Source: Acidobacteriaceae bacterium
Lineage (GTDB): Bacteria; Acidobacteriota; Terriglobia; Terriglobales; Acidobacteriaceae
Length of the DNA: 34,819 nucleotides
Assembly: GCA_030041435.1 (NCBI GenBank)
Contig: JASHNW010000003.1
Location: 1-34,819, forward strand
Direction: 5' to 3'
The position numbers and the translations under genes were made by a program. The notes beneath the pieces were generated by a model. That model did not search any database. It worked only from the letters and a program-made list of their open reading frames with translations, and had not been told where the DNA came from. Shown piece after piece: positions 14,288 through 28,791 of this stretch. Position 1 is the stretch's first letter, and each line of letters begins with the position of its first letter.

Positions 14288-14647
14288 GCCGCCTATCCTA
14301 ACCCGGCCGGGCACGCGCCTCCAAAAAATCCGCCCCAGGTGCGAAGCACATCCCGCCGAAAAAACCACTCTTGTGCTGCTAATGAACGAGCCGGCACGGG
14401 CCCGGAGTGCCGCATAAGTGGAATCTATTTCCGGCATCACGATTTCCTTTTTTCCTCATATTTTTTCCTTTGGGAGCAACGTCCGCGCGGACTATGCTCT
14501 GCTGAAGTCCCCGTCGACAAGGCTCATCAGGTTCGCAGCCGCTCATGCTTCACAACCCAATGAAGGACTGCACAACGCAGCTGGCGCATTTCTCTGCCCC
14601 GGAGGCGCGGCCTAACGCATTTCTTTCTGGTGAGGAGGCAGTCACGA
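14288..14647. other. Divergent intergenic region, cytochrome gene and TonB receptor gene
   Basis: 360 bases. Holds a T-rich tract (about 14449-14471), the predicted receptor promoter with a palindrome in its spacer (listed separately), and then a leader of about 145 bases. The leader contains an imperfect direct repeat GCGCATTTCTCTG (14585-14597) and ACGCATTTCTTTCTG (14615-14629) shortly before the ribosome binding site. No ORF or known riboswitch recognised. Confidence 0.5.
14470..14498 (+). promoter_or_regulatory. Predicted promoter with spacer palindrome for the TonB receptor
   Basis: -35 TTGGGA (14470-14475) and -10 TATGCT (14493-14498) are 17 bases apart, four matches each. An upstream T-rich tract could act as an UP element. 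The spacer contains the perfect 12-base palindrome GTCCGCGCGGAC (14481-14492), placed where a repressor would block RNA polymerase. Confidence 0.45.
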
Positions 14648-17600
14648 ATGTTCAGGCGCTCGGCGTTCAGGTATTGTCTGTTCCTTGTTTGCTGCGTTGC
14701 TCTTCCTCGTGCATTATCGGCCCAGCAGACTCTCGGCGGTATCACAGGCGAGGTCACCGACTCCTCCGGCGCAGCGGTTTCAGGCGCAACGGTAACCGCC
14801 GTTGGGGATCAGACCGCGCTCACCCGTTCCACCACGACCAACGGAGAAGGTGGCTACACGCTGGTCAACCTGCCTATCGGCCCCTATACCATCAGCATCG
14901 TGAATCAGGGGTACGACACGCAGAGGTTCCCGGGCATCCTGGTTCAGGCTGATCGCACCGCGACTGTCAATGCCGTGCTCAAAATTGGCCAGGTTAGCCA
15001 GTCGGTCACCGTAGAAGCTTCGCCTCTGCTCAACACCACCGACACGACCAACGGGTACGTCCTCGATAAAGCAGAGATCGATTCCGTACCGCTCCCCACC
15101 GGCAGCTTCACCGGCCTGGCCATCCTGTCGCCTGGCGTGAACGCCGAACTGTCCGGCGGCACGGGCAGCAACAGCGGCCTTGGCAATGCGCCGATCTGGG
15201 CGAACGGGCAACGCGACACCTCGAATGCGTTCCTGCTGAACGGCGTCGACGCCAGCAACCTGTTCAACGGAAAGAGCACCAGCCAGGTAGAATCCGCCCG
15301 CGTGGTGAACAACACCGGCGGCAGCGCCAGCAGCGGCACCACCAGCGCCGGCGTCGAATCAAGCGCTTCCTCGGTTTATCTGTCCATCGGAAACTCCCTC
15401 CCGACGCCCGCGCCTGAGATGCTGCAGGAGGTTCGTGTCAACGCGTCCATGTACGACGCCCAACAGGGTTCGGCCAGCGGCGCACACATCGACATGAGCA
15501 CCGGTTCCGGCACCAATGCCATGCACGGGACGCTGTACGGTCATCGGGGTACGAACTGGCTGAACGCCGCGCCTTTCTTCTTCAAGAACAACTCCGGGAT
15601 CCCGGCAGCCGACCGGAATCCCGAACTGCATCGTTACATTGCCGGCGGCACATTCGCCGGTCCCATTATCAAGGACAAACTTTTCTATTTCGCCGGCTAC
15701 CAGCATCTGCATATTTCCGACCAGGAAACCGGCGATACGCTGATCGACGTTCCGCCCGGACTCAGCGATACCAACCGAACCGCCTCGGGCCTTGCCACCA
15801 TTGTCGACTGCAACTGGGGACCAGGCACAACCGCCGCGGCCTCCGACTGCGCCCACAACTATAACGATCCCAACGGCTACAGCAACAACGGTTTTACCGT
15901 CGCACCCTCCGACTGGGCTGCCAACCCCGTCGGGCTGGCACTGATGCAGGCCAAGCTTCCCAACGGAACATGGCTTATCCCGAACGACAACGGCCACATT
16001 CCCGATGCTCTCTCGCCTTCCAACGCTTTTGAAACGGGAACCTCCTACTTCACCGCGGATCAGGCGGTCGGCGACCTCGACTGGAATACATCGCCGAGGG
16101 ATCTGGTGAGCCTGAAGTACTACTATCAGCACGATCCCAACACTTCACCGTACGGAACTTCGAGCGTCCCCGGATTTACCGAGCACATGGATGCCGGATC
16201 GCAGGTCGCGACCATTACCAATATCCAGACCCTGCGGCCGGCACTCAGCCTGACGGAATCGCTCGGCATCGTGAGGGAGAAGGCGTACAGCACGAACGAT
16301 CAGCTCTTTACTCCGGAGCAGGTCGGGATGAGCTCCGCCTTCGGCAACTACTTCCCGGGCATCTCCATTATCGACGTTCTTGGAGCCTACGGGTCCAGCC
16401 TGGGCCTTCCGCAGCAGCCCCTCTACATTGGGCCCAGCGCCGCCAACCAGGGAGCCTTTACTGGCGTCTTCCAGAATCGGATTGAGCCATCGGCCAACGC
16501 TATCTGGACCAAAGGCGCGCACTCCATTACCTTTGGTGGTAACTGGTGGTTTACGCAACTCAACGTGCGCGACCTGCGCACAGGCAAGGGTGCTGTTTCG
16601 ACCCCCGATTTCTCCACGTTTGCCATGAACTGGGTATCTCCCTACACCACGGACGGATTCGTGGCGACCGACTTCCTTCAGGGAGACGCCAACCGGTACT
16701 ATCGCGCCAATCAGGTCGGCATGTATCTTGCCGATAAGTGGCAGATGCGTCCCAACCTGAGCATCACGGCAGGAGTTCGCTACGACTGGAATGGCGGGCT
16801 GACCGAAAAATACGGGCGCATCTATAACTTCGACCCCGCCGCCTATTCATATGATACGGGCCTCGACAAGATTACCGGCTCCGGAATCATCGTCGCCGGC
16901 AATAACGCAGCGAGCAAAGCTGTCAATGGATCCGAGAACGTCAGTAATACGACGCTCACCGGACGCCAGTGGGGGATTGCTCCACGCCTCGGCCTTGCAT
17001 GGCAGCCGTCTGCACTGCGTGACAAGCTGGTTGTACGTGCGGGAAGCGGATTCTACTATGATCGCGGTGAGCTCTACACTTACTTCTCCCCGGGCTATGC
17101 GGCGGGTGAGATCGCGGGCGGCCCTTTCGGCGTGAGCCAAACCGCTCCCTTTGTCACTTCGCAGAGCTGCCCCTACAGCGCATCGCCCTATGGCAATACC
17201 AGCTTCCTCTACAACTACTACATCCCCATTTGCGGCCTTAGTCCCTTCTCGCCGGAGGACGGCAGCATGCTGTCCTATAATCTCGCTGATCCGTGGGGTC
17301 CCATGCGCAACTCTCCGCCCAGCAATCCCAGCGCCGCATCTCTGACCAACTATCTTCCCGATGCGGCGGGCATCACGGCCGGCGCGCAGCCTTTCACGCT
17401 GGGCCTCTACAATCGCAAAAACAAACTGCCGTACTCCATTAACTACACGCTGGATCTGGAGTGGCAGCCGAATAACACCATGATGATCGAGCTTGGCTAT
17501 GTCGGCAATGTCGGCCGACATCAGGTTATTCCGCTGCCGTTCAACCAGGCCCAGATTGCCACTCCGTCCCGGCCAACCCACTCAGGCGGCACCGCACAGC

Positions 17601-18691
17601 AGAACTACACTTACGGCTATACAGTCTACGATCCCACCACTTTTGCCCCGATCTGCGTCAACCAGGACCCCAACTGCGCCTACGGTCCCATGCAGCAAAA
17701 CTATGAAGGTGGCAACGTCGACCTGCGCGTTCCTTACCTGGGCTTTTCATCCGAGTCGGAATCCTACACGGCAGCCGGCATTTCTTCCTACAACGCGCTG
17801 CAGGCTCACCTGGAAAAGCGCCTCAATCACGGCTTCCAGACCGGGGTGTCATACACCTACTCGCACGCTACCGACGAGCAGAGCGCCCTCGGCCTCTTCT
17901 ACAACGGAAGCAACCCTCTGGATTTGCGCAGCGGCTACGGTTCAGCCGACTTCGACCGCACCCACGTGCTTAACTTCACTTACAGCTTTGTTCTCCCCAA
18001 GCTCTATGGCGAGAGTTCATTTGCCGGGAAAGTGATCGACGACTGGTCGCTCACCGGCATCGGCATCATCCAGAGCGGTCAGCCATACAGCATTATCGAT
18101 TTCTCCGGCGCGGTCGGCAGCCTGTACTACAGCACCTTTGACGGGATTACCAACCCGATCGTCCCCCTGGCGCCCGGCTGCACCGCCAAAAGCGCTCTGA
18201 CCGGCCACTCCGGCGCTTTCTATAACAATGCAACGGGAGGCGGCGCAGCTCTCAAGGCGTCGTGCTTCACTTTGCCTCTTGTGTCCCCGGGGACGAACGG
18301 CGTCCCCAATGGAGATAACTTCGAGACTACTTTTACGTCCGGCCAGCGTAACATCTTCCGGCAAGCCTTTCAGAAGCGAGCCGACATATCCCTGGTGAAG
18401 ACTCTGCAGTTCGGCGACAGGTATGGTATTCGTTATACCTTCGATATCTATAACGTGACTAATACGACCAGCTTCGATGTTCCGACGGACGAAGTGACTC
18501 AAAACGCCGGATACAACAACGCGCCCTACCTGGCCACCGCTTATAGCCAGGTAGCACCAACCCCGCAGCAATGCCAGTCCAACAGCGCGCCTGCCGGCAC
18601 TTTCTACAGCTGCCCGACGGGGCTGGGGGTTGTGAAGCACACCATCGGAACTCCGCGCCAGATTCAAATGTCGCTGCACTTCAGCTTTTAA
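14648..18691 (+). CDS. Oar-like TonB-dependent outer membrane receptor
   Basis: 1347 residues. Signal peptide 1-25 (cleavage near LSA/QQ). Residues about 28-115 are a carboxypeptidase-regulatory-like beta domain (GEVTDSSGAAVSGATVTA, DGxY-like GGYTLVNLPIGPYT). A plug follows from about 120 (VLDKAEIDSVPLPTGSFTG), then a long beta barrel ending in the aromatic-terminated strand IQMSLHFSF, the outer membrane insertion signal. This architecture is abundant in Acidobacteriota, where many copies exist and substrates are mostly unknown, usually oligosaccharides or other large nutrients. ATG 14648 with GAGGAGG upstream is preferred to GTG 14630. The adjacent amidase and the facing purine operon hint at nitrogen-rich substrates, but only by position. 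Confidence 0.9.
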   Translation: MFRRSAFRYCLFLVCCVALPRALSAQQTLGGITGEVTDSSGAAVSGATVTAVGDQTALTRSTTTNGEGGYTLVNLPIGPYTISIVNQGYDTQRFPGILVQADRTATVNAVLKIGQVSQSVTVEASPLLNTTDTTNGYVLDKAEIDSVPLPTGSFTGLAILSPGVNAELSGGTGSNSGLGNAPIWANGQRDTSNAFLLNGVDASNLFNGKSTSQVESARVVNNTGGSASSGTTSAGVESSASSVYLSIGNSLPTPAPEMLQEVRVNASMYDAQQGSASGAHIDMSTGSGTNAMHGTLYGHRGTNWLNAAPFFFKNNSGIPAADRNPELHRYIAGGTFAGPIIKDKLFYFAGYQHLHISDQETGDTLIDVPPGLSDTNRTASGLATIVDCNWGPGTTAAASDCAHNYNDPNGYSNNGFTVAPSDWAANPVGLALMQAKLPNGTWLIPNDNGHIPDALSPSNAFETGTSYFTADQAVGDLDWNTSPRDLVSLKYYYQHDPNTSPYGTSSVPGFTEHMDAGSQVATITNIQTLRPALSLTESLGIVREKAYSTNDQLFTPEQVGMSSAFGNYFPGISIIDVLGAYGSSLGLPQQPLYIGPSAANQGAFTGVFQNRIEPSANAIWTKGAHSITFGGNWWFTQLNVRDLRTGKGAVSTPDFSTFAMNWVSPYTTDGFVATDFLQGDANRYYRANQVGMYLADKWQMRPNLSITAGVRYDWNGGLTEKYGRIYNFDPAAYSYDTGLDKITGSGIIVAGNNAASKAVNGSENVSNTTLTGRQWGIAPRLGLAWQPSALRDKLVVRAGSGFYYDRGELYTYFSPGYAAGEIAGGPFGVSQTAPFVTSQSCPYSASPYGNTSFLYNYYIPICGLSPFSPEDGSMLSYNLADPWGPMRNSPPSNPSAASLTNYLPDAAGITAGAQPFTLGLYNRKNKLPYSINYTLDLEWQPNNTMMIELGYVGNVGRHQVIPLPFNQAQIATPSRPTHSGGTAQQNYTYGYTVYDPTTFAPICVNQDPNCAYGPMQQNYEGGNVDLRVPYLGFSSESESYTAAGISSYNALQAHLEKRLNHGFQTGVSYTYSHATDEQSALGLFYNGSNPLDLRSGYGSADFDRTHVLNFTYSFVLPKLYGESSFAGKVIDDWSLTGIGIIQSGQPYSIIDFSGAVGSLYYSTFDGITNPIVPLAPGCTAKSALTGHSGAFYNNATGGGAALKASCFTLPLVSPGTNGVPNGDNFETTFTSGQRNIFRQAFQKRADISLVKTLQFGDRYGIRYTFDIYNVTNTTSFDVPTDEVTQNAGYNNAPYLATAYSQVAPTPQQCQSNSAPAGTFYSCPTGLGVVKHTIGTPRQIQMSLHFSF

Positions 18692-20188: not shown

Positions 20189-21433
20189 TCAGTGAGCGCG
20201 CGACAAATCTGCCAGGGTGTGTGCCAGCACTCTCACGCCGGCGACGATGTCCTCCGGCGCAGCGTATTCATCGGGTCGATGGCTCACGCCGCCGCGGCAG
20301 GGAATGAAGATCATGGCCATCGGCGCAATCTGCGCCATGAAGGAGGAGTCGTGATACGCGCGAGCGACTATTCTGCGCGATTTGAGACTCTCCTGCTCGC
20401 ACGCCCGCTCGATGATGGCGACTATCTCGGGCGCAGAGATCGCCGGTTCATCTGCGTTCAACATCCGGGTTTCGATTTGTAACTTCCGCATTTGCGCAAT
20501 CTCCCTGACAGCCGCCATCGTGCCGCGCAGCACCTCATCCCTGCGCTCGCCGTCTGTATCGCGTAAGTCAACCCCGAGTCTGACGCGGCTGGGAATACTG
20601 TTGATCGCCCCAGGATGCACTTCGCAGATGCCCACGGTGGCAACTGTGTCAGTCGATCCCGTATTCTTCGCCAGCGATTCGATCCGCGTAATCAGCTCCG
20701 CCGCCGCGCACAGAGCATCGTGCCGGTCCGGCATCAGAACGCCGCCTGCGTGACCGCCCTGCCCTTCGAAGATTACAAACAAGCTCGCCGGCGCGGCAAT
20801 ATTTGTGACAATGCCAATCGGAATTCCTTCGCGCTCCAGAATCGGCCCCTGCTCGATGTGCAGTTCAACAAACGCTGCGTAATGGCTTCTGCTCAGCCGC
20901 ACCGATGCGAGCCCACCCGAAAATCCAGCCCTTGTCCGCACGGTCCGCAGCGTCTCGCCATCGTCGCCGCTCAACTTCTCATCCGCCTCCGGTCCCAAAA
21001 CTCCGCAAAGCAACCGGCTACCGATACAGCCTACCCCGAAGCGGGTCGGCTCCTCCGCTGTGAACTGAATCAGTTCGATGGAGCGTTCCGGCCGGAAGTC
21101 GCTCTGCTGCAGGGCGCGGATCGCCTCCAGTCCGCCGAGCACGCCCACCACGCCGTCAAACTTACCCGCGTGCGGAATCGCATCGATGTGCGAACCGGTG
21201 GCCACCGCAGGCAAGTCTGGTTGCAATCCCTTCCAGCGAACGAATGTATTGCCGACGGCATCTTCGCGGATCGTTAAACCCGCCTGCGCGCACCGCGCTT
21301 TCAGCCATGCCCGCGCGCGCAGGTCCTGGTCGCTGAAGACGACGCGCGTAACCGCGGGCGGTTCGGCGTCCGAAAACGCTGCAAGTTCTTCGATCTCCAG
21401 CGCCAGCCGTTCCGCATCCACTGCAATGGTCAT
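20189..21433 (-). CDS. Ureidoglycolate amidohydrolase (UAH), M20 family
   Basis: 414 residues. Hydrolyses (S)-ureidoglycolate to glyoxylate, ammonia and CO2, the last step of ureide breakdown. M20 metal-site residues: H82 in GSHIDAIPHAGKFDG, D93, E127/E128 in FTAEEPTRFG, H192 in LHIEQGP and H385 in GVSHRPDEY. The stretches GSHIDAIP and TAEEPTRFG match plant UAH rather than allantoate amidohydrolase, which has the GSHLDTV and DEEGTRFG forms seen two genes upstream. ATG at 21433 overlaps the stop of the ureidoglycine aminohydrolase gene as ATGA. It is the last gene of the purine operon. Substrate assignment rests on these motifs and the pathway context. Confidence 0.85.
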   Translation of the reverse strand: MTIAVDAERLALEIEELAAFSDAEPPAVTRVVFSDQDLRARAWLKARCAQAGLTIREDAVGNTFVRWKGLQPDLPAVATGSHIDAIPHAGKFDGVVGVLGGLEAIRALQQSDFRPERSIELIQFTAEEPTRFGVGCIGSRLLCGVLGPEADEKLSGDDGETLRTVRTRAGFSGGLASVRLSRSHYAAFVELHIEQGPILEREGIPIGIVTNIAAPASLFVIFEGQGGHAGGVLMPDRHDALCAAAELITRIESLAKNTGSTDTVATVGICEVHPGAINSIPSRVRLGVDLRDTDGERRDEVLRGTMAAVREIAQMRKLQIETRMLNADEPAISAPEIVAIIERACEQESLKSRRIVARAYHDSSFMAQIAPMAMIFIPCRGGVSHRPDEYAAPEDIVAGVRVLAHTLADLSRAH

Positions 21434-22182
21434 CGCGCCCTCAGCGGATGCCGGTTCCAGTCCTTGTAGATCAGATACTTCGCCGGCGTTTTGCCCAACG
21501 CTCCAAACCACTGCGGGCAATATGGGGCCATCCAGATAAAATCGCCGGCGGTCACCGGATGCCAGTCGTCGTCGAGCCGATAAATCCCGCCGCCTTCCAT
21601 CATCAGCAGGCCATGCTCCATCTCGTGAATTTCCACCATGCTCAGCGCCGCCCCCGGCTGATACGTCATCGTGTTGATGGCAAAATCGAACGCCATCGTA
21701 TCCGGCAGCAGATTCCGCACCTGCAAAGCCCCATCGCCCATCAGCGGCTGCGCAGCGATCTCCGGCTCGCGGCCAACGAGCACCTCCGGCGCAGCGACGC
21801 CGGCCACCGCGCGGTACGTTTGCTCGATTACCGCAACCCGCGCCGCCTCCAACGCAACCACGCGATGATCCATCCCCTGCGGGATGTAGGCATAGCCATC
21901 CTTTGCCAGCGTGTACGTACGCGGCCCCGCTCCCAGCGTGATCGTTCCTTCCAGCACGTACACGAATCGTTGCCCGGCGGCATGGCCGAGCACGCCGCCC
22001 GCTTCAAACTCCGCCGAATACTGCGTGAAGCCGGCACCCACCGCCGGAGATACGTGCACGATGACGCATGCCTTGCTGCCCCCCGGAATTTGCGTGCGAA
22101 TCAATGTGTCGGGGGATTGCAGCAGGTAGGTCGAACGCCGCACGCTGCGCGTGTGCCCCAGATTGTGAAGTCCGCTATGCAT
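21430..22182 (-). CDS. allE: (S)-ureidoglycine aminohydrolase, bicupin
   Basis: 250 residues, two cupin domains (about 45-110 and 165-235). Converts (S)-ureidoglycine to (S)-ureidoglycolate and ammonia, keeping stereochemistry. The manganese site in the second cupin is complete: E184, H186, H190 and Q224 have the same spacing (2, 4, 34) as E235, H237, H241 and Q275 of the Arabidopsis enzyme, and K240 matches its K291. Surrounding residues HGLLMMEGGGIYRLDDDW and FIWMAPYCPQWFGALG are also near plant forms. Start at 22182 overlaps the upstream stop by 8 bases; the frame continues to 22245 without similarity. ATGA overlap with the next gene. Confidence 0.95.
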   Translation of the reverse strand: MHSGLHNLGHTRSVRRSTYLLQSPDTLIRTQIPGGSKACVIVHVSPAVGAGFTQYSAEFEAGGVLGHAAGQRFVYVLEGTITLGAGPRTYTLAKDGYAYIPQGMDHRVVALEAARVAVIEQTYRAVAGVAAPEVLVGREPEIAAQPLMGDGALQVRNLLPDTMAFDFAINTMTYQPGAALSMVEIHEMEHGLLMMEGGGIYRLDDDWHPVTAGDFIWMAPYCPQWFGALGKTPAKYLIYKDWNRHPLRAR

Positions 22183-23485
22183 GCTGCCCGCCCTCTTTCT
22201 TTCCGATCCACGCTGCATACTCATCCAGGAAGCACAAGCCTGCATGCAGGCCCGCCGCCATATCCTGCTCCGCGACGCTCTCGTCAGGGTGATGGCTGAT
22301 GCCTCCCGGATTGCGAAGGAAGATCATCGCCGAAGGCAGATGCGGGGCCATCACCATCGCATCGTGGCCAGCCCCGCTCGTCATGCGAATCGTCGCATAG
22401 CCGGCGCGTTTCGCCGCACGCTCTGCCATTGCGACAATCTCCGCAGCCAGGCGGACCGCGGGGTGCTCGTGATACTGCTCTGCTTCCACCGTTATGCCGC
22501 GCCGCCTGCCCACGACATGCGCTTCATCGAAGATTGCGCGCACCGCCGCGTCGCGCGCGGAATCCTCCGGGTGCCGGACATCCAGGCTGCAGCGCACGAA
22601 GCCCGGAATCACATTGACTGCGCCCGGTTCGGCCTCAATCTCTCCTACGGTCGCGACCGCATTTTCAAACCGCGACGCAATCGCCTCAACGCGCGTCATC
22701 CATTCCGCGGCTGCGGCCAGCGCATCGCTCCGCAACCTCATAGGCGTCGTACCGGCATGACTGGCTCGCCCGCGGAATACCACATTGCCGCGGCTCTGCC
22801 CCGCCAGGCCCTCCACGATGCCAAGAGCGAGGTTCCTGCTCTCCAGCACCGGCCCCTGCTCGATATGAAACTCGAGATACGCCCCGCTCCCCGGCGCCAG
22901 CGAGGCGTCCACGGCGTCCGTATGGGCAGCACCAAATTCCCGCAATGCCTCACCCACCGTCGCGCCCGCATGGTCGATGCGCTGCAGCAACGCGCCCTGG
23001 AGTTCGCCCACCACCGCCCGGCTGCCCAGAAACGGCGCTCCGAAGCGTGTCCCTTCTTCATCGCTGAAGCCAATCACTTCAATCGCAAAACCAGGCGTGC
23101 GGCCCGCCAGCGACTCCACGAGAGCAAGCCCCATCAGCACGCCCAGTACGCCGTCGTAGGCGCCGGCGTTCGGCACCGTATCCAGATGCGACCCGATAAG
23201 AAGCCGCGGCATGTCTGCATCGGCATCCGCCGGATACACTCCGCGCAGATTCCCCGCCCGATCCATGCCAACGGCCATGCCCGCGGCCTCCATCCATGGC
23301 CGCATCGTCCGATGCACTTCGTTCATGGCCGGCGAAACGAACGTCCGCAGAATTTGGCCGGGCTTGTCGGTGATCTTCGCCAGAGTCGCGCAGCGAAGCA
23401 TCACCCTGGCCGCACCCTCGCCGGCCGCTGCCGCGTACGAGGCCTCGCGGATCGCCAGCGTGCTCAATTCGCTCGCCTCACGCAT
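22175..23485 (-). CDS. allC: Allantoate amidohydrolase, M20 family
   Basis: 436 residues. Releases ammonia and CO2 from allantoate, giving (S)-ureidoglycine, in the cytoplasm. Binuclear metal-site residues: H100 in GSHLDTVPNAGAYDG, D111, E143/E144 in SDEEGTRFG, H207 in FHIEQGP and H398 in GISHHPDES. It contains the dimerisation-lid region RASHAGTTPM (240-249) of AllC/hydantoinase-type M20 enzymes. The carbamoylase branch of the family is similar, so the substrate is set by context: it lies between uricase and ureidoglycine aminohydrolase. The start overlaps the uricase stop by 22 bases. Its product is unstable, and the next gene encodes the enzyme that uses it. Confidence 0.85.
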   Translation of the reverse strand: MREASELSTLAIREASYAAAAGEGAARVMLRCATLAKITDKPGQILRTFVSPAMNEVHRTMRPWMEAAGMAVGMDRAGNLRGVYPADADADMPRLLIGSHLDTVPNAGAYDGVLGVLMGLALVESLAGRTPGFAIEVIGFSDEEGTRFGAPFLGSRAVVGELQGALLQRIDHAGATVGEALREFGAAHTDAVDASLAPGSGAYLEFHIEQGPVLESRNLALGIVEGLAGQSRGNVVFRGRASHAGTTPMRLRSDALAAAAEWMTRVEAIASRFENAVATVGEIEAEPGAVNVIPGFVRCSLDVRHPEDSARDAAVRAIFDEAHVVGRRRGITVEAEQYHEHPAVRLAAEIVAMAERAAKRAGYATIRMTSGAGHDAMVMAPHLPSAMIFLRNPGGISHHPDESVAEQDMAAGLHAGLCFLDEYAAWIGKKEGGQHA

Positions 23486-24312
23486 GCCTCAATCGAGCCA
23501 TGCGGTTCATCGGTGGGCACAAAGATGCGGTTCGGGTTATCGAGCCCAAACGGCGACAGATCCACCAGGTTGCAATGCTTATTGGGCATCGATAAATGAA
23601 TCTCCGCAATCCCCGTTTCCGCCTCCAGCGCAGCCTTGCCCATGGCATACAACGTCTGTTGCACCGATTGACTCTGGTGGGTTGCAAAAGTACTTAGCAG
23701 CGAATCCATGATGCGGTGGCGCGCAGCCTTATAGTCGACTCCCTCCAGCGAATATTTCCACTCGCCTGCCGCCACCGTGCCGAGCAGCCGGTCGTGCGTC
23801 TCTTGCAGCGTGGTCAGCTTGTCTTTGATGAATCCAGCAAATGCCGAGTTCGCAGTTTTCAGGATTGCCAGATCCCGAAATCCTCCGCACACGCTCGCCG
23901 CTTCGCCTCTGCGCCGGGTTACGGTCGCGGTGTCGGGTGCATTTCTGGCCTGAATAAATGCAGATCCATGCATCTGCCTGCCGTCCGACAGCGGCCCCCA
24001 CTGAGTGGCGGCGATGCTGGCTCCCGCTTCTTCCACCTGTAGATTGTTTTCGAGCAAATACGTAACCAACTCCGTTGCAAATCCCTCGATGTGCTCCGCC
24101 TTCGACAGCCTGGCCAGGTAATACACCGTGTTCTTCATCGTATCTGTGGGCAGAATGCGGCTGTTATCGCCGTCTTCAAAACAGCTCCGGAAGTCTCCCC
24201 TGAGCCACACTTCCACGTTCCACTCCTGCACGCTGTGCGGTTCGCTCTCTCGCTCCACTCGCATCACGCGCACACACGATTTGCCGTATCGGTTTTCTCC
24301 CAGTTCGATCAT
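23464..24312 (-). CDS. Uricase (urate oxidase)
   Basis: 282 residues, normal for the cofactor-free tunnelling-fold uricase. Oxidises urate with O2 to 5-hydroxyisourate and H2O2. Visible: catalytic Lys K11 in RYGKSCVRV, catalytic Thr region LPTDTMKNTVYYLAR (54-68), urate-stacking Phe region in LKTANSAFAGF, the binding Arg in ETHDRLLGT, the binding Gln in SVQQTLYAMG, and the His loop MPNKHCNLVDLSPFG. ATG at 24312 follows GAGAAG and lies 6 bases after the HIU hydrolase stop. The hydrogen peroxide formed implies a catalase elsewhere; none is in the window. The C-terminus overlaps the allantoate amidohydrolase start. Confidence 0.97.
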   Translation of the reverse strand: MIELGENRYGKSCVRVMRVERESEPHSVQEWNVEVWLRGDFRSCFEDGDNSRILPTDTMKNTVYYLARLSKAEHIEGFATELVTYLLENNLQVEEAGASIAATQWGPLSDGRQMHGSAFIQARNAPDTATVTRRRGEAASVCGGFRDLAILKTANSAFAGFIKDKLTTLQETHDRLLGTVAAGEWKYSLEGVDYKAARHRIMDSLLSTFATHQSQSVQQTLYAMGKAALEAETGIAEIHLSMPNKHCNLVDLSPFGLDNPNRIFVPTDEPHGSIEACVRRAN

Positions 24313-24318
24313 CGCTTC

Positions 24319-24660
24319 TCAGCTTCCTCGATAGGTGGAATAACTGTACGGCGTAATCAGCAGCGGCACATGGTAGTTCTGGCACTCAGCCATCACTTCA
24401 AACACAATCTCAATATAAGGATGGAAGCATTTGCTCCCCTGTGCCCGAAAATAGGCTCCCGTTTCAAAGGCGAGGCGATAGCGCCCTTTGTGCGGCGGCG
24501 TCGCCGGCGGCAAGATGCTCCGAATCCGGCCGTCGGCATCGGTGGTGCATCGCGCAAGCTCCTGCCAGGTGCCGTCCTGCTCGCGTTCCAGCCGCACAGC
24601 AACCCCAGCGGCAGGCCGGCCGAGGGCCAAATCCAAAACGTGCGTCGAAATGCCTCTCAT
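24319..24660 (-). CDS. uraH: 5-hydroxyisourate hydrolase (transthyretin-like)
   Basis: 113 residues, the usual size. Opens 5-hydroxyisourate to OHCU, the second step after xanthine dehydrogenase and uricase. All signature residues are present: H7 in STHVLD, R45 in DADGRIRS, H97 in NYHVPLL and the C-terminal tetrapeptide YRGS (110-113) that separates HIU hydrolases from transthyretin. The start chosen (24660) forms an ATGA overlap with the upstream fusion gene and matches the usual MRGISTHVLD beginning; an ATG at 24672 would add four residues. Confidence 0.96.
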   Translation of the reverse strand: MRGISTHVLDLALGRPAAGVAVRLEREQDGTWQELARCTTDADGRIRSILPPATPPHKGRYRLAFETGAYFRAQGSKCFHPYIEIVFEVMAECQNYHVPLLITPYSYSTYRGS

Positions 24661-26042
24661 AGTTTCAGCCATTTCCGCAGCCGCAGCTGCGTGATCTGCC
24701 GCTGTTGTTCGGCCGTTTCGCGCAGTTCCGTCGCCTCATCGTTGCCGAGCCGCGTGCGCAGGATTGCCAGCACCTCCGCTGCCGATTTTCCCGTCGCGCA
24801 CACCAGAAACACGCGCCCAAATCGCACCTCATACTCCGCGTTGCCGCGTGCCAACTCTGCCAGCGTCTCTGCATCGCGCGCGTCCACGCCGCTCTGCTCC
24901 TCGCTCGACCACAATGCGGATTGCAGTGTCGCCCCTACAGCCGCCCTGCGTTCGCCGATCCGCGGATGGCTCTGGAATGCCTCGTCCCAGTCCTCCCCGG
25001 TCAGCTCCCACCACACCCGGTCCGACACCGCAGACAACTCCGCCGTCGAAGCCAGCGGCCGCCGAGCCGCCATCTCCCGCGCCCAACGCGTCGATCCGCA
25101 GCAAGGCAGGATCTCCTCGGCAGCCTCCATCGCCGGCAGCGCGTTCCAGCGGGCCAGCACGGGATTCATTTGCTCGCCCGATTCTGCAAGAGACCGCAGA
25201 AGCTCCTCAATCAAATTCCCCGCTACCCATCGCCGGTATTCGGCGATAGAACGAATATCGTCAATCGGCGCAATCTCCGCATCGAGCGCCCGGCGCGCTT
25301 CCGCAACGACCGCATCGTCGATGCGACGACCCTCGACAGCCGCTTCGACGCCCCTCAGCCGTAGCGGAGTGGGCGCCACCGCACCCATGCCAATGCGCAC
25401 ATCGGCTGCGCGGCCGCCATGCAGCCGCCCTACGCCCGCAACACACACCTTGGAAATCGCCTGCGCATTGCGCGCGCCGGCTTTGCGCCCATAGGAAAAG
25501 TAACCGTCGTAGTGCTTTTTCAGGATCACCGACAGGATCAGCTCGCCCGGTCCCAGCGCCGTTTTCTTGTATCCGAGATGAAAATCCCGGTACGCGATGC
25601 GCCGCCTGCCGCGAGCCGAAACCAGCTCCAATTCCGCATCATAGGCCAGCAGCGCCGGAGGCGAATCGGCTGCCGGGGAAGCATTCGCGAGATTCCCCGC
25701 GATCGTCGCCCGATTCTGATTCGCGATACTGCCGGTCCACGACGCTGCCTGCGCCAGCAGCGGAAAGTGCACCTGCACTTCGTCCCAATGGCGAATCTGG
25801 CTGAACGTACAGCCCCCGCCCAACGTGAGCGTGTGGGCGTCTACACGGATGGTTCGCAGCTCCGGCAGATTGCCCACATTGACGAACCGCCGCGCATCCA
25901 GCTTCCCTGCGCCGAACATCACCATAATCTCGGTCGCGCCGGCCAGGGGCATCCACTGACCCGGCTCGTTGTCCAGCAGGCGCAACACCCCCTGCAGTGT
26001 GCCCGGCGACACAAGGTCGTAGTCCGCAGGGTGCGCCCTCAT
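24657..26042 (-). CDS. xdhB-uraD: Xanthine dehydrogenase FAD subunit fused to OHCU decarboxylase
   Basis: 461 residues in one uninterrupted frame. Residues 1-285 are a xanthine-dehydrogenase-type FAD subunit: FAD-binding PLAGATEIMV (32-41), IANQNRATIAGNLANASPAA (106-125), then the C-terminal domain (about 180-285). Residues about 295-461 are a full OHCU decarboxylase: NALPAMEAAEEILPCCGS, catalytic H359 in FQSHPRIGE, LARGNAEYEVRFGRVFLVCA (397-416) and LRLRKWL near the end. The fusion joins electron transfer in xanthine oxidation with the reaction giving (S)-allantoin two steps after urate. About 10 residues link the domains. Names follow E. coli (XdhB is the FAD subunit). ATGA overlaps at both ends. 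Confidence 0.93.
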   Translation of the reverse strand: MRAHPADYDLVSPGTLQGVLRLLDNEPGQWMPLAGATEIMVMFGAGKLDARRFVNVGNLPELRTIRVDAHTLTLGGGCTFSQIRHWDEVQVHFPLLAQAASWTGSIANQNRATIAGNLANASPAADSPPALLAYDAELELVSARGRRRIAYRDFHLGYKKTALGPGELILSVILKKHYDGYFSYGRKAGARNAQAISKVCVAGVGRLHGGRAADVRIGMGAVAPTPLRLRGVEAAVEGRRIDDAVVAEARRALDAEIAPIDDIRSIAEYRRWVAGNLIEELLRSLAESGEQMNPVLARWNALPAMEAAEEILPCCGSTRWAREMAARRPLASTAELSAVSDRVWWELTGEDWDEAFQSHPRIGERRAAVGATLQSALWSSEEQSGVDARDAETLAELARGNAEYEVRFGRVFLVCATGKSAAEVLAILRTRLGNDEATELRETAEQQRQITQLRLRKWLKL

Positions 26043-26521
26043 GAACGCTCCTCGCCCGCGATGGTCACTGCCCGCTCGACGGCCTCAAGAATCCGCATAT
26101 ATCCCGTGCAGCGGCACAGATTCCCGTTCAATCCTTCGCGAATTGCCTCGAGATCCGGCCGGGGATTCTTCCTCAGCAAATGAGCGGAAGCCACCAGCAT
26201 TCCCGGTGTGCACATGCCGCACTGCCCGCCGCCGCAGGAAAGAAACGCGCGCTGAATTGCATGGAGACGGTCGTCGCATCCCAGGCCTTCTACCGTCTCG
26301 ATCTCCGCGCCGTCCGCCTGCGCCACGGGAATCAGACAGCTGTTCACCAGGTCGCCATTCAGCAGCACACTGCACGCCCCGCACTCGCCCTCACCGCATC
26401 CTTCTTTTGTACCCGTCAGCTGCAGATCGCGTCGCAGTACGTCCAGCAGCCGCGCCATCGCATGCGACTCCACGGTCCGCGACTCACCGTTCACGCGGAG
26501 CGAGAATCTCTGCAGGGTCAC
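26039..26521 (-). CDS. xdhC: Xanthine dehydrogenase 2Fe-2S subunit
   Basis: 160 residues from a GTG that overlaps the Mo-subunit stop (GTGA, 26518-26521). Carries both iron-sulfur clusters of molybdenum hydroxylases: plant-ferredoxin type C42, C47, C50 and C62 (GCGEGECGAC and following) and the helical type C101, C104, C136 and C138 (CGMCTPGM and LCRCTGY). It relays electrons from the Mo site to FAD. The frame is open to 26827, but that part overlaps the Mo subunit and has no similarity. Name follows E. coli XdhC. Confidence 0.95.
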   Translation of the reverse strand: MTLQRFSLRVNGESRTVESHAMARLLDVLRRDLQLTGTKEGCGEGECGACSVLLNGDLVNSCLIPVAQADGAEIETVEGLGCDDRLHAIQRAFLSCGGGQCGMCTPGMLVASAHLLRKNPRPDLEAIREGLNGNLCRCTGYMRILEAVERAVTIAGEERS

Positions 26522-28791
26522 AGCGCCACCACCGCCGGCTCGGGCTGGCGCACAGCCATGCGGAGGAACATATCCTCCGGCAGCAGCGGGACAGCGTCGA
26601 ACTGCTTCCCGGTCGCGTGCGACACCGCGTTCAGAATTGCCGGCGCCGGCCCATCCATCGGCAACTCGCCGATTCCCTTCGCGCCATAGGCTCCATGTCC
26701 GAACGGCAATTCCGCGAAGAAGACGCGAATCGGCGGAATATCCTGCGTGGTCGGAATAATGTAGTTGGTCATCTGGTTGTTCGCCATCCGGCCGCGATTC
26801 CACACCACCTTCTCGTAAAGCGCCCAACCGATCCCCTGCGCCACGCCGCCCTCGATCTGGCCCGTCGCCAGCACCGGATTCAGTACCCGCCCCGCTTCCT
26901 GCATAGCGACAAAATCATCGATCGTCACTCCGCATGTTGTGAGATCGACCGTCACCTCAGCCACGTACACAGCCCAAGCATAGGCCGCGTACGCCTCTCC
27001 GCGATAGGTACGGTCGTCCCAGTGAACGCCCGGCGGGGCCTGATAGCGACTCTCCGCGCGCAGGCTGCCATGCTGCGCCACATATGTGCGCGCAGCGGCT
27101 ACAAATTCCGCCGATGTGTATCCCTCGGCCAGCAGTCCACTCGCCAGCAGCGTCTGCTTCAGTCCGTGCGCTGCCGACTGCACCAGCTTACCCACCACCA
27201 TCGACGTGCGCGACGCCACGGTCGGTCCGGAGTTGGGCACCACGCTTGTATCCGGAGGGCCCATTTCGACCAGGTCGTAATCGACACCCAGCGACTCGGC
27301 CGCGATCTGGCAAAGAATGGTATTCGTTCCCTGCCCGAACTCCGTGCTCGATACCAGCACGCGCGCCCTGCCTTCTGCGGTCAGATCCACCGCCACCAGC
27401 GAATTCAGATAGCGCTCGCCCGAACCCGTGAATCCCGAACCGTGCAGGAACGTCGCCAGCCCGATGCCCTTCTTCTTCGTCCCGGCGCCCGCGTTGACCC
27501 GGTCGAAACGCTTCCGCTTTGCGTAGTAATCCGACTCCGCCAGCGCGCGCTCCATCAGTTTCTCGAGATCCAGCGCCTCGCGAATTTCCTGGCCCGTGGC
27601 TGTCGTCAACCCCGGCTTCAGAAAATTCCTGCGCCGCACTTCTTCAGGAGGAAGGCCGAGCGCTTCCGCGATGTGATCCATGTGCCGCTCGACCGCAAAC
27701 AGGCTCTGCGGCGCTCCAAATCCGCGAAACGCGCCGTGCGGCGGGCAATTCGTCGCCAATGCCTTCGACTTCACGCGAATATTCGGCCAGAAATACGGGC
27801 CGCCGGCATGAATCGTGGACCGCGACAGCACCGTCGGCGACAGCGTCGAATAAGCGCCCCCGTCCAGAGCGATTTCAATTTCCGCCGCCTGCAGCCTGCC
27901 GTCGCGCGTCACCGCCGTCCTGTGCCGAATGCGCGACGGATGCCGTTTCGTTGTCGCCGCCATATCTTCGGCGCGGTCGTAGACGATCTTCACCGGACGT
28001 CCCGACTTCATGGCCAGAAGCGCCGCGTGCGCACCGATCATCGACGGATAATCTTCCTTGCCGCCAAACGCGCCGCCCGTCTCCACCTGCACAATGCGAA
28101 CCTTCTCTTCCGACAGCCCGGTCAATTTCACCAGCGACTTGTGCACGTAGAACGGGCATTGCAGCGAGCCCCACACCGTCAGCTGGCCTTCCCGCGAATA
28201 CGCCGCGATCGCCCCGTTGTTTTCGATGTAGAGGTGCTCCTGTGCGCCGGTCGTGTACTCGCCCTCGACGATCACGTCCGCCGTGGCCCACGCTGCATCC
28301 ACATCGTCCTTCTCCAGCAAAAACGACTTGAAGACGTTGTCGGTGCCCCACACAATCGTCTCCCCGCGCTCGCTCTCTTCGATCGTGAATATCGCGGGCA
28401 TTTCCTCGTACTGCACGCGCACCGCCGCCACGGCCTTCGGCAGCAGGTGCCGGTCGGCATGCGCCAGCAGCAGAATCGGTTCCTCGGGATGATTGACGAA
28501 TTCCCGGGCGAGGCACGGCCAGTCGTGGTTGATCAGCGCTATCTCGTTTTCGCCCGGGATATCGGTCGCCGTGACGATGACAAATTCGTTCCAGGGAATG
28601 CCAGGGCCGAACTCGATTCCCAGAATCCGCCCACGCGCAATGCTGCTGCGCACGGTGGCCCCGTGGAGCATTTCGGGGAGACTTATGTCGTCGATATACT
28701 GCGCGCGGCCGCACACCTTTCCCAGCCCCTCCTTGCGAACCGCCGCTTTGCCGACAATCTTCTCCTGCAAATCCGCTCCGCATCTGGCCAC
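26518..28791 (-). CDS. xdhA: Xanthine dehydrogenase molybdenum-binding subunit
   Basis: 757 residues. Hydroxylates hypoxanthine/xanthine to urate. Residues that set purine specificity are kept: E246 in GGAFGGKED (bovine Glu802 position), R356 in AFRGFGAPQ (Arg880 position) and the catalytic base E709 in GAKGIGELP. CO dehydrogenases and aldehyde oxidases of this superfamily usually differ at the first two. First gene of the operon. The start is uncertain: GTG 28791 gives a weak ribosome binding site, whereas TTG 28770 has GGAG 5 bases upstream. No XdhC-type sulfuration chaperone is in the window. Confidence 0.94.
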   Translation of the reverse strand: MARCGADLQEKIVGKAAVRKEGLGKVCGRAQYIDDISLPEMLHGATVRSSIARGRILGIEFGPGIPWNEFVIVTATDIPGENEIALINHDWPCLAREFVNHPEEPILLLAHADRHLLPKAVAAVRVQYEEMPAIFTIEESERGETIVWGTDNVFKSFLLEKDDVDAAWATADVIVEGEYTTGAQEHLYIENNGAIAAYSREGQLTVWGSLQCPFYVHKSLVKLTGLSEEKVRIVQVETGGAFGGKEDYPSMIGAHAALLAMKSGRPVKIVYDRAEDMAATTKRHPSRIRHRTAVTRDGRLQAAEIEIALDGGAYSTLSPTVLSRSTIHAGGPYFWPNIRVKSKALATNCPPHGAFRGFGAPQSLFAVERHMDHIAEALGLPPEEVRRRNFLKPGLTTATGQEIREALDLEKLMERALAESDYYAKRKRFDRVNAGAGTKKKGIGLATFLHGSGFTGSGERYLNSLVAVDLTAEGRARVLVSSTEFGQGTNTILCQIAAESLGVDYDLVEMGPPDTSVVPNSGPTVASRTSMVVGKLVQSAAHGLKQTLLASGLLAEGYTSAEFVAAARTYVAQHGSLRAESRYQAPPGVHWDDRTYRGEAYAAYAWAVYVAEVTVDLTTCGVTIDDFVAMQEAGRVLNPVLATGQIEGGVAQGIGWALYEKVVWNRGRMANNQMTNYIIPTTQDIPPIRVFFAELPFGHGAYGAKGIGELPMDGPAPAILNAVSHATGKQFDAVPLLPEDMFLRMAVRQPEPAVVAL

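Follow-up and report, generated by a model that had tools for sequence, protein, structure and literature searches.

An OHCU decarboxylase fused to a xanthine dehydrogenase-type FAD subunit in some soil Acidobacteriota

What does a cell gain, if anything, when two enzymes that act at non-adjacent steps of a pathway are encoded by a single gene? This question is raised by a window of 34,819 nucleotides (contig JASHNW010000003.1 of assembly GCA_030041435.1, from an Acidobacteriaceae bacterium; 'the window' denotes this whole stretch of DNA), in which a preliminary description had noted a fusion between the FAD subunit of xanthine dehydrogenase (XDH) and OHCU decarboxylase (UraD). It had also noted that the partners are separated in the pathway, with which we agree, as UraD acts three steps after XDH.

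The fusion gene and its cluster

The gene is the single uninterrupted frame that had been described, with 461 codons at exactly 24657-26042 of the minus strand, and its parts are as follows.

24657..26042 (-) XdhB-UraD fusion gene; 461 aa, single ATG-to-TGA open frame
25179..26042 (-) FAD-subunit part; residues 1-288, with PF00941 at 8-174 and PF03450 at 187-283
25158..25178 (-) short joint; residues 289-295, with a predicted loop at 289-293
25166..25169 (-) ATGA, putative overlap relic; its ATG (M292) is in the UraD frame, its TGA is not in the XdhB frame
24660..25157 (-) OHCU decarboxylase part; residues 296-461, with H359, E382, Q383 and R454

Both domains are complete, as had been claimed. 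In Pfam searches, the N-terminal part matches FAD_binding_5 (PF00941; residues 8-174, 139.7 bits) and CO_deh_flav_C (PF03450; residues 187-283, 78.9 bits), both far above cut-off, and the C-terminal part matches OHCU_decarbox (PF09349; residues 300-456, 147.8 versus 24 bits) from end to end, covering positions 1-155 of a model of 155. A chance open frame is rejected, since both domains are full-length. The UraD half also passes the NCBIfam model TIGR03180 (174.3 bits, cut-off 139.4); the FAD half scores 170.3 bits against the NCBIfam XdhB equivalog and does not reach its cut-off of 310, so the N-terminal half is best named an XDH-type FAD subunit, for which 'XdhB' is used here as shorthand.

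The residue that had been proposed as catalytic, H359, is the histidine of an HPRIGE motif, and the three alignments shown place it on the HP of OHCU decarboxylases with solved structures. Along with E382, Q383 and R454 it is identical in 40 of the 40 covering rows of alignment A2, and P360 is present in 39 of these 40; we take the His-Pro, Glu-Gln and Arg residues of UraD to have catalytic roles. An AlphaFold2 model of the fusion (A2, 62 rows; mean pLDDT 88.1) contains two folded domains, with a loop between a helix at 267-288, which ends the FAD-subunit part, and a helix at 294-301; the relative orientation of the domains is uncertain (pTM 0.67). Among the 50 listed of 207 Foldseek matches to this model, all are FAD-subunit or XDH/aldehyde-oxidase chains, with CODH medium chains at the top, and the UraD half is not represented; its identity as UraD therefore rests on sequence. 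A search of the source genome found no second UraD, making 24657-26042 the sole copy detected.

The fusion gene is part of a minus-strand purine cluster, in whose order it stands between the second and third of these genes.

26518..28791 (-) XDH-type molybdopterin (Mo) subunit; 757 aa
26039..26521 (-) XDH-type iron-sulfur (FeS) subunit; 160 aa, with a GTG start that we chose
24319..24672 (-) HIU hydrolase (HIUase); TIGR02962 above cut-off
23464..24312 (-) uricase; TIGR03383 above cut-off
22175..23485 (-) allantoate amidohydrolase; NF006775 above cut-off
21430..22245 (-) (S)-ureidoglycine aminohydrolase; TIGR03214 above cut-off
20189..21520 (-) second M20-family amidohydrolase; allantoate/hydantoinase-carbamoylase type, a putative substrate class

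Overlaps of 4 bases on both sides of the FeS gene link the Mo subunit, the FeS subunit and the fusion, and the gene order and overlaps suggest that the cluster is transcribed as one unit. The Mo subunit falls below the cut-off of the NCBIfam XDH equivalog (458.6 versus 783.65 bits); its best solved match is bovine xanthine oxidase, with which its GGKE, AFRGFG and GE motifs, presumably of functional importance, align. Xanthine is thought to be the substrate, on the strength of the gene cluster and of this top match. An allantoinase scores above cut-off elsewhere in the source genome (contig C90). Divergent from the purine genes and beside them, an amidase (PF01425; 18793-20109, plus strand) for which AtzE/indoleacetamide-type models score below cut-off has a possible part in ureide breakdown, and a large protein adjoining these genes (14630-18691, plus strand), which from its sequence resembles a TonB-dependent receptor, is a possible route of purine or ureide uptake.

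Distribution and history of the joint

The XdhB-UraD join is real in some soil Acidobacteriota. Among 155 distinct UraD loci, XdhB and UraD are fused at 21 and adjacent but separate at 35, allantoicase and UraD are fused at 15, and 84 have other arrangements; homologues are thus not always two genes, whereas the preliminary description had named their always being two as an outcome that would speak against it. A sequencing or assembly error that joined two frames is conceivable in that the two genes of neighboring lineages lie in different frames and that the majority of relatives are metagenome-assembled, but 20 distinct fused loci in addition to that of the window, which bring the number to 21 across many assemblies with seven in the window's own clade, rule out such an error in practice, and we give it next to no credence.

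The 155 loci were derived from 192 by merging those with identical last 120 UraD residues, after L020, L028, L029, L034 and L167 (without a UraD tblastn match) and L084 (100-base filler) were dropped; loci L193-L205 lie outside this set. Because the 155 loci were gathered by convenience, a better guide to prevalence is given by samples of genomes, which overlap one another: the fusion was found in 3 of 17 UraD-bearing genomes in the family sample (100 searched), 9 of 74 in the class sample (299 searched) and 3 of 53 in the phylum sample (396 searched). In the class and phylum samples, all matches with an open frame of at least 430 aa were read individually, those below 430 aa were scored on the length of the frame or on a fetched locus, and some short partial matches were left unscored (class: G142, G323 and G150; phylum: G540, G594, G694 and G699). 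Phyla other than Acidobacteriota were sampled unevenly.

Among the 80 best of 570 confirmed sites, the named relatives that were fetched are mostly Acidobacteriota, and the six nearest, all metagenome-assembled, are five Acidobacterium sp. and one member of the Acidobacteriaceae; six relatives with UraD 70-73% identical to that of the window have XdhB and UraD fused. Of 461 plasmid records that match the fusion protein, one reaches 80% coverage, and its genes are not fused. Two candidates were rejected: a Nonomuraea match covers 95% of the query in two pieces, with UraD, HIUase, uricase and XdhB in succession and stops between them, and the long frame of L137 contains UraD alone. The fused locus L094 (CAJCHZ010000019.1) is titled Betaproteobacteria and bears the acidobacterial cluster; its UraD also occurs in L043, whose genome is placed in the class of the window, and the title is therefore probably mistaken. 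Among the 56 loci at which XdhB and UraD are neighboring or joined, the XdhB match is short at three: at L089 and L107 the contig or the match is cut (at L089, which is fused, the contig start truncates the FAD part), and at L131 the frame breaks. Also among the 56, the UraD match of L154 contains one stop. The uricase match of L017 is in two frames, and that of L004 is in two pieces whose query parts overlap; these, like the stop in L154, are either broken genes or assembly errors.

Comparison of fused and separate loci suggests how the join may have come about. A 4-base NTGA overlap joins XdhB and UraD in 32 of the 35 separate loci, and NTGA occurs in the UraD frame near the joint position in 34 of the 35. 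In fused genes it is kept at the start site of the separate genes in 8 of 21 (offsets 9 and 12; L129, at offset 18 and farther upstream, is excluded from this count). The ATGA of the window, whose TGA is no longer in the XdhB frame and whose ATG still codes for M292, is read as a relic of an ancestral overlap between the XdhB stop and the UraD start; at the same position L092, a locus with separate genes and the sister of the window's clade, has GTGAATCC. XdhB and UraD genes with such a 4-base overlap probably merged by a frame change just 5' of the ancestral stop codon, and mergers of this sort probably took place several times within the class. A free UraD might start at M292 in the window, a codon that is CTG in five and TTG in one of the six nearest relatives. 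An in-frame ATG, GTG or TTG is found near the joint in 18 of the 21 fused genes, so that a second, internal UraD start is conceivable, and this counts against an obligate fusion.

Trees built on XdhB plus UraD, with the joint excluded, place the fused state among close relatives in a scattered manner. At least 8 changes between the fused and separate states are needed on a tree of 55 rows, from which L026 was omitted for its very long branch, and 5 of these are forced by supported branches; an earlier tree of 56 rows also gives 8 changes, 4 of them forced. A history with a single change is permitted by 0 of 200 bootstrap trees of the 55-row set, and a single fusion without later change is rejected. 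All seven members of the window's clade are fused. It appears from these trees that the join arose repeatedly, and fission may account for part of the changes; the presence of NTGA in 34 of the 35 separate loci favors repeated gains over losses.

Bias of the UraD joint and its possible benefit

The remaining joints of the 56 clusters serve as controls. XdhB and UraD are fused at 21 of the 56 loci, whereas FeS-FAD and UraD-HIUase are each fused at 0 of 55, Mo-FeS at 0 of 49, HIUase-uricase at 0 of 34, allantoate amidohydrolase-(S)-ureidoglycine aminohydrolase at 0 of 32, and (S)-ureidoglycine aminohydrolase-second amidohydrolase at 0 of 31. The uricase-allantoate amidohydrolase joint is fused at 1 of 22, a case (L131) that is distrusted because two frames are needed to read the Mo and FAD genes of that contig and the uricase match stops at residue 253 of 282. 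Fisher values for this comparison of joints take no account of relatedness. The 4-base overlap is found at 45 of 49 Mo-FeS, 41 of 55 FeS-FAD and 53 of 55 UraD-HIUase joints. These clusters therefore amount to a natural, replicated gene-fusion experiment, in which several joints share the same 4-base overlap and almost only the joint 5' of UraD fuses, in several lineages.

This bias bears on whether the fusion is neutral, that is, whether a merger of overlapping genes was tolerated for the reason that the UraD N-terminus and the XdhB C-terminus are free, with no functional gain. Such a history accords with the scatter of the fused state, with the 35 of 56 loci at which the genes remain separate, and with a joint that differs among loci in both sequence and length. 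However, the FeS-FAD and UraD-HIUase joints of these clusters, most of which share this overlap, stay unfused, although fusion of FeS to FAD is feasible in principle (TIGR02963 spans both of these subunits of the window), and the fused state is retained throughout the window's clade. We regard neutrality as a serious contender that falls a little short of persuading us; it shares the bifunctional protein with the reading that we prefer and denies only the benefit, so that the weights given to the two overlap.

The preferred reading, which we consider probable, is that the gene arose from merged overlapping genes and encodes a bifunctional FAD subunit with a C-terminal OHCU decarboxylase, and that the benefit, if any, is one of dosage or co-location. 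The FAD subunit of an assembled three-subunit XDH-type enzyme would carry the decarboxylase on its C-terminus, where it would form (S)-allantoin from OHCU while the XDH-type enzyme remained active, and one decarboxylase domain per FAD subunit would fix both the ratio and the location of the two. Intermediates would still pass through a separate urate oxidase and a separate HIU hydrolase, so that any benefit would lie in dosage and co-location and not in direct handing-over.

The preliminary description had proposed instead that the fusion channels labile intermediates toward (S)-allantoin, a rationale that the evidence does not support. What xanthine dehydrogenase produces is not the substrate of UraD, and as UraD acts three steps later the product of one domain cannot pass to the other. 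In addition, UraD is fused to other enzymes in the same phylum. Allantoicase and UraD are fused in 15 of 44 neighboring pairs among the 155 loci, a rate similar to that of XdhB and UraD, and allantoicase repeats are also fused to UraD at L202, outside the 155. An amidohydrolase domain, read from its context as allantoinase-like, precedes UraD at L042 (1483-3444, minus strand; the frame runs past the end of the locus) and L201 (1095-3248). These partners indicate that fusion can join enzymes of non-consecutive steps, and that in this phylum it takes place at the N-terminal end of UraD, where upstream enzymes of at least three kinds are attached.

The urate oxidase also varies. By tblastn, the enzyme is a soluble uricase at 17 of the fused loci and of the membrane PuuD type at 4; the separate loci have a soluble uricase at 18 and the PuuD type at 15, with 2 cut by a contig end, giving 19 PuuD-type enzymes in the 56 loci. 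Fusion and type of urate oxidase show no clear link (Fisher p 0.079, with relatedness ignored). Urate_ox_N was confirmed by Pfam on two example loci. PuuD-type urate oxidase is unrelated to soluble uricase, so its presence in 4 of 21 fused loci shows that the fusion is not bound to one particular uricase; this variety speaks against one conserved channeling complex, and not against a looser co-location. In the sister clusters of L096 (5839-6708) and L113 (5847-6707), the uricase slot holds a Urate_ox_N protein of less than 290 aa in which no further Pfam domain was found; PuuD is described as a cytochrome c fusion in a passage of PMC4562309.

A metabolon, in which XDH, uricase and HIU hydrolase gather around the tethered UraD and pass on HIU and OHCU without escape, would fit the clustering of the genes for all four steps, the recurrence of the fusion at an identical place, and the metastability of HIU and OHCU, for which a passage of PMC4562309 gives half-lives in minutes. 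We nevertheless find it improbable, given the fusion of UraD to allantoicase (15 of the 155 distinct loci, plus L202) and to allantoinase-like amidohydrolases, the membrane urate oxidase in some fused loci, and the absence of fusion between UraD and HIUase, a pair of adjacent steps, in all 137 neighboring pairs of the 155 loci. A broader conjecture, which we offer as doubtful speculation, is that selection repeatedly attaches UraD, as a mobile C-terminal rider, to large enzymes of purine catabolism (XDH, allantoicase, allantoinase), which thereby become scaffolds that keep the labile OHCU step local, with XDH as the hub of a purine-to-allantoin assembly in these Acidobacteriota. The joining of UraD to pathway-distant enzymes is a warning against taking fusion as proof of channeling, and sister lineages with fused and split genes offer a possible test of whether tethering an enzyme of a labile intermediate matters.

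Relation to known fusions and folds

The XdhB-UraD fusion was not found described in the literature searched, which was mostly outside subscription journals. A close counterpart among domain models is the allantoicase-UraD fusion (NF010371/PRK13797), whose C-terminal positions 348-518 of 521 are matched by the UraD of the window; the partner is allantoicase in that architecture and an XDH-type subunit here, and no allantoicase match was found by Pfam in the fusion protein of the window. In NF010373/PRK13799, a UraD-like domain is joined to an M20-type hydrolase (N-carbamoyl-L-amino acid hydrolase), with the UraD-like part N-terminal and a partner unlike that of the window. Bacillus PucL is a UraD-uricase fusion, which also differs from the window protein in partner and order. 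The FAD-subunit fold is common to the CODH medium chain and R. capsulatus XDH chain A (TMt up to 0.91, 1n61_C), which, unlike the window protein, are without a decarboxylase domain. Plant TTL joins UraD to HIU hydrolase, and a passage of PMC2834698 attributes both activities to the full-length protein; its partners catalyze consecutive steps and UraD is N-terminal, in contrast to the arrangement in the window. Fusion of UraD to other purine enzymes is therefore already known, and the XDH subunit as its partner is a new variation on this theme.
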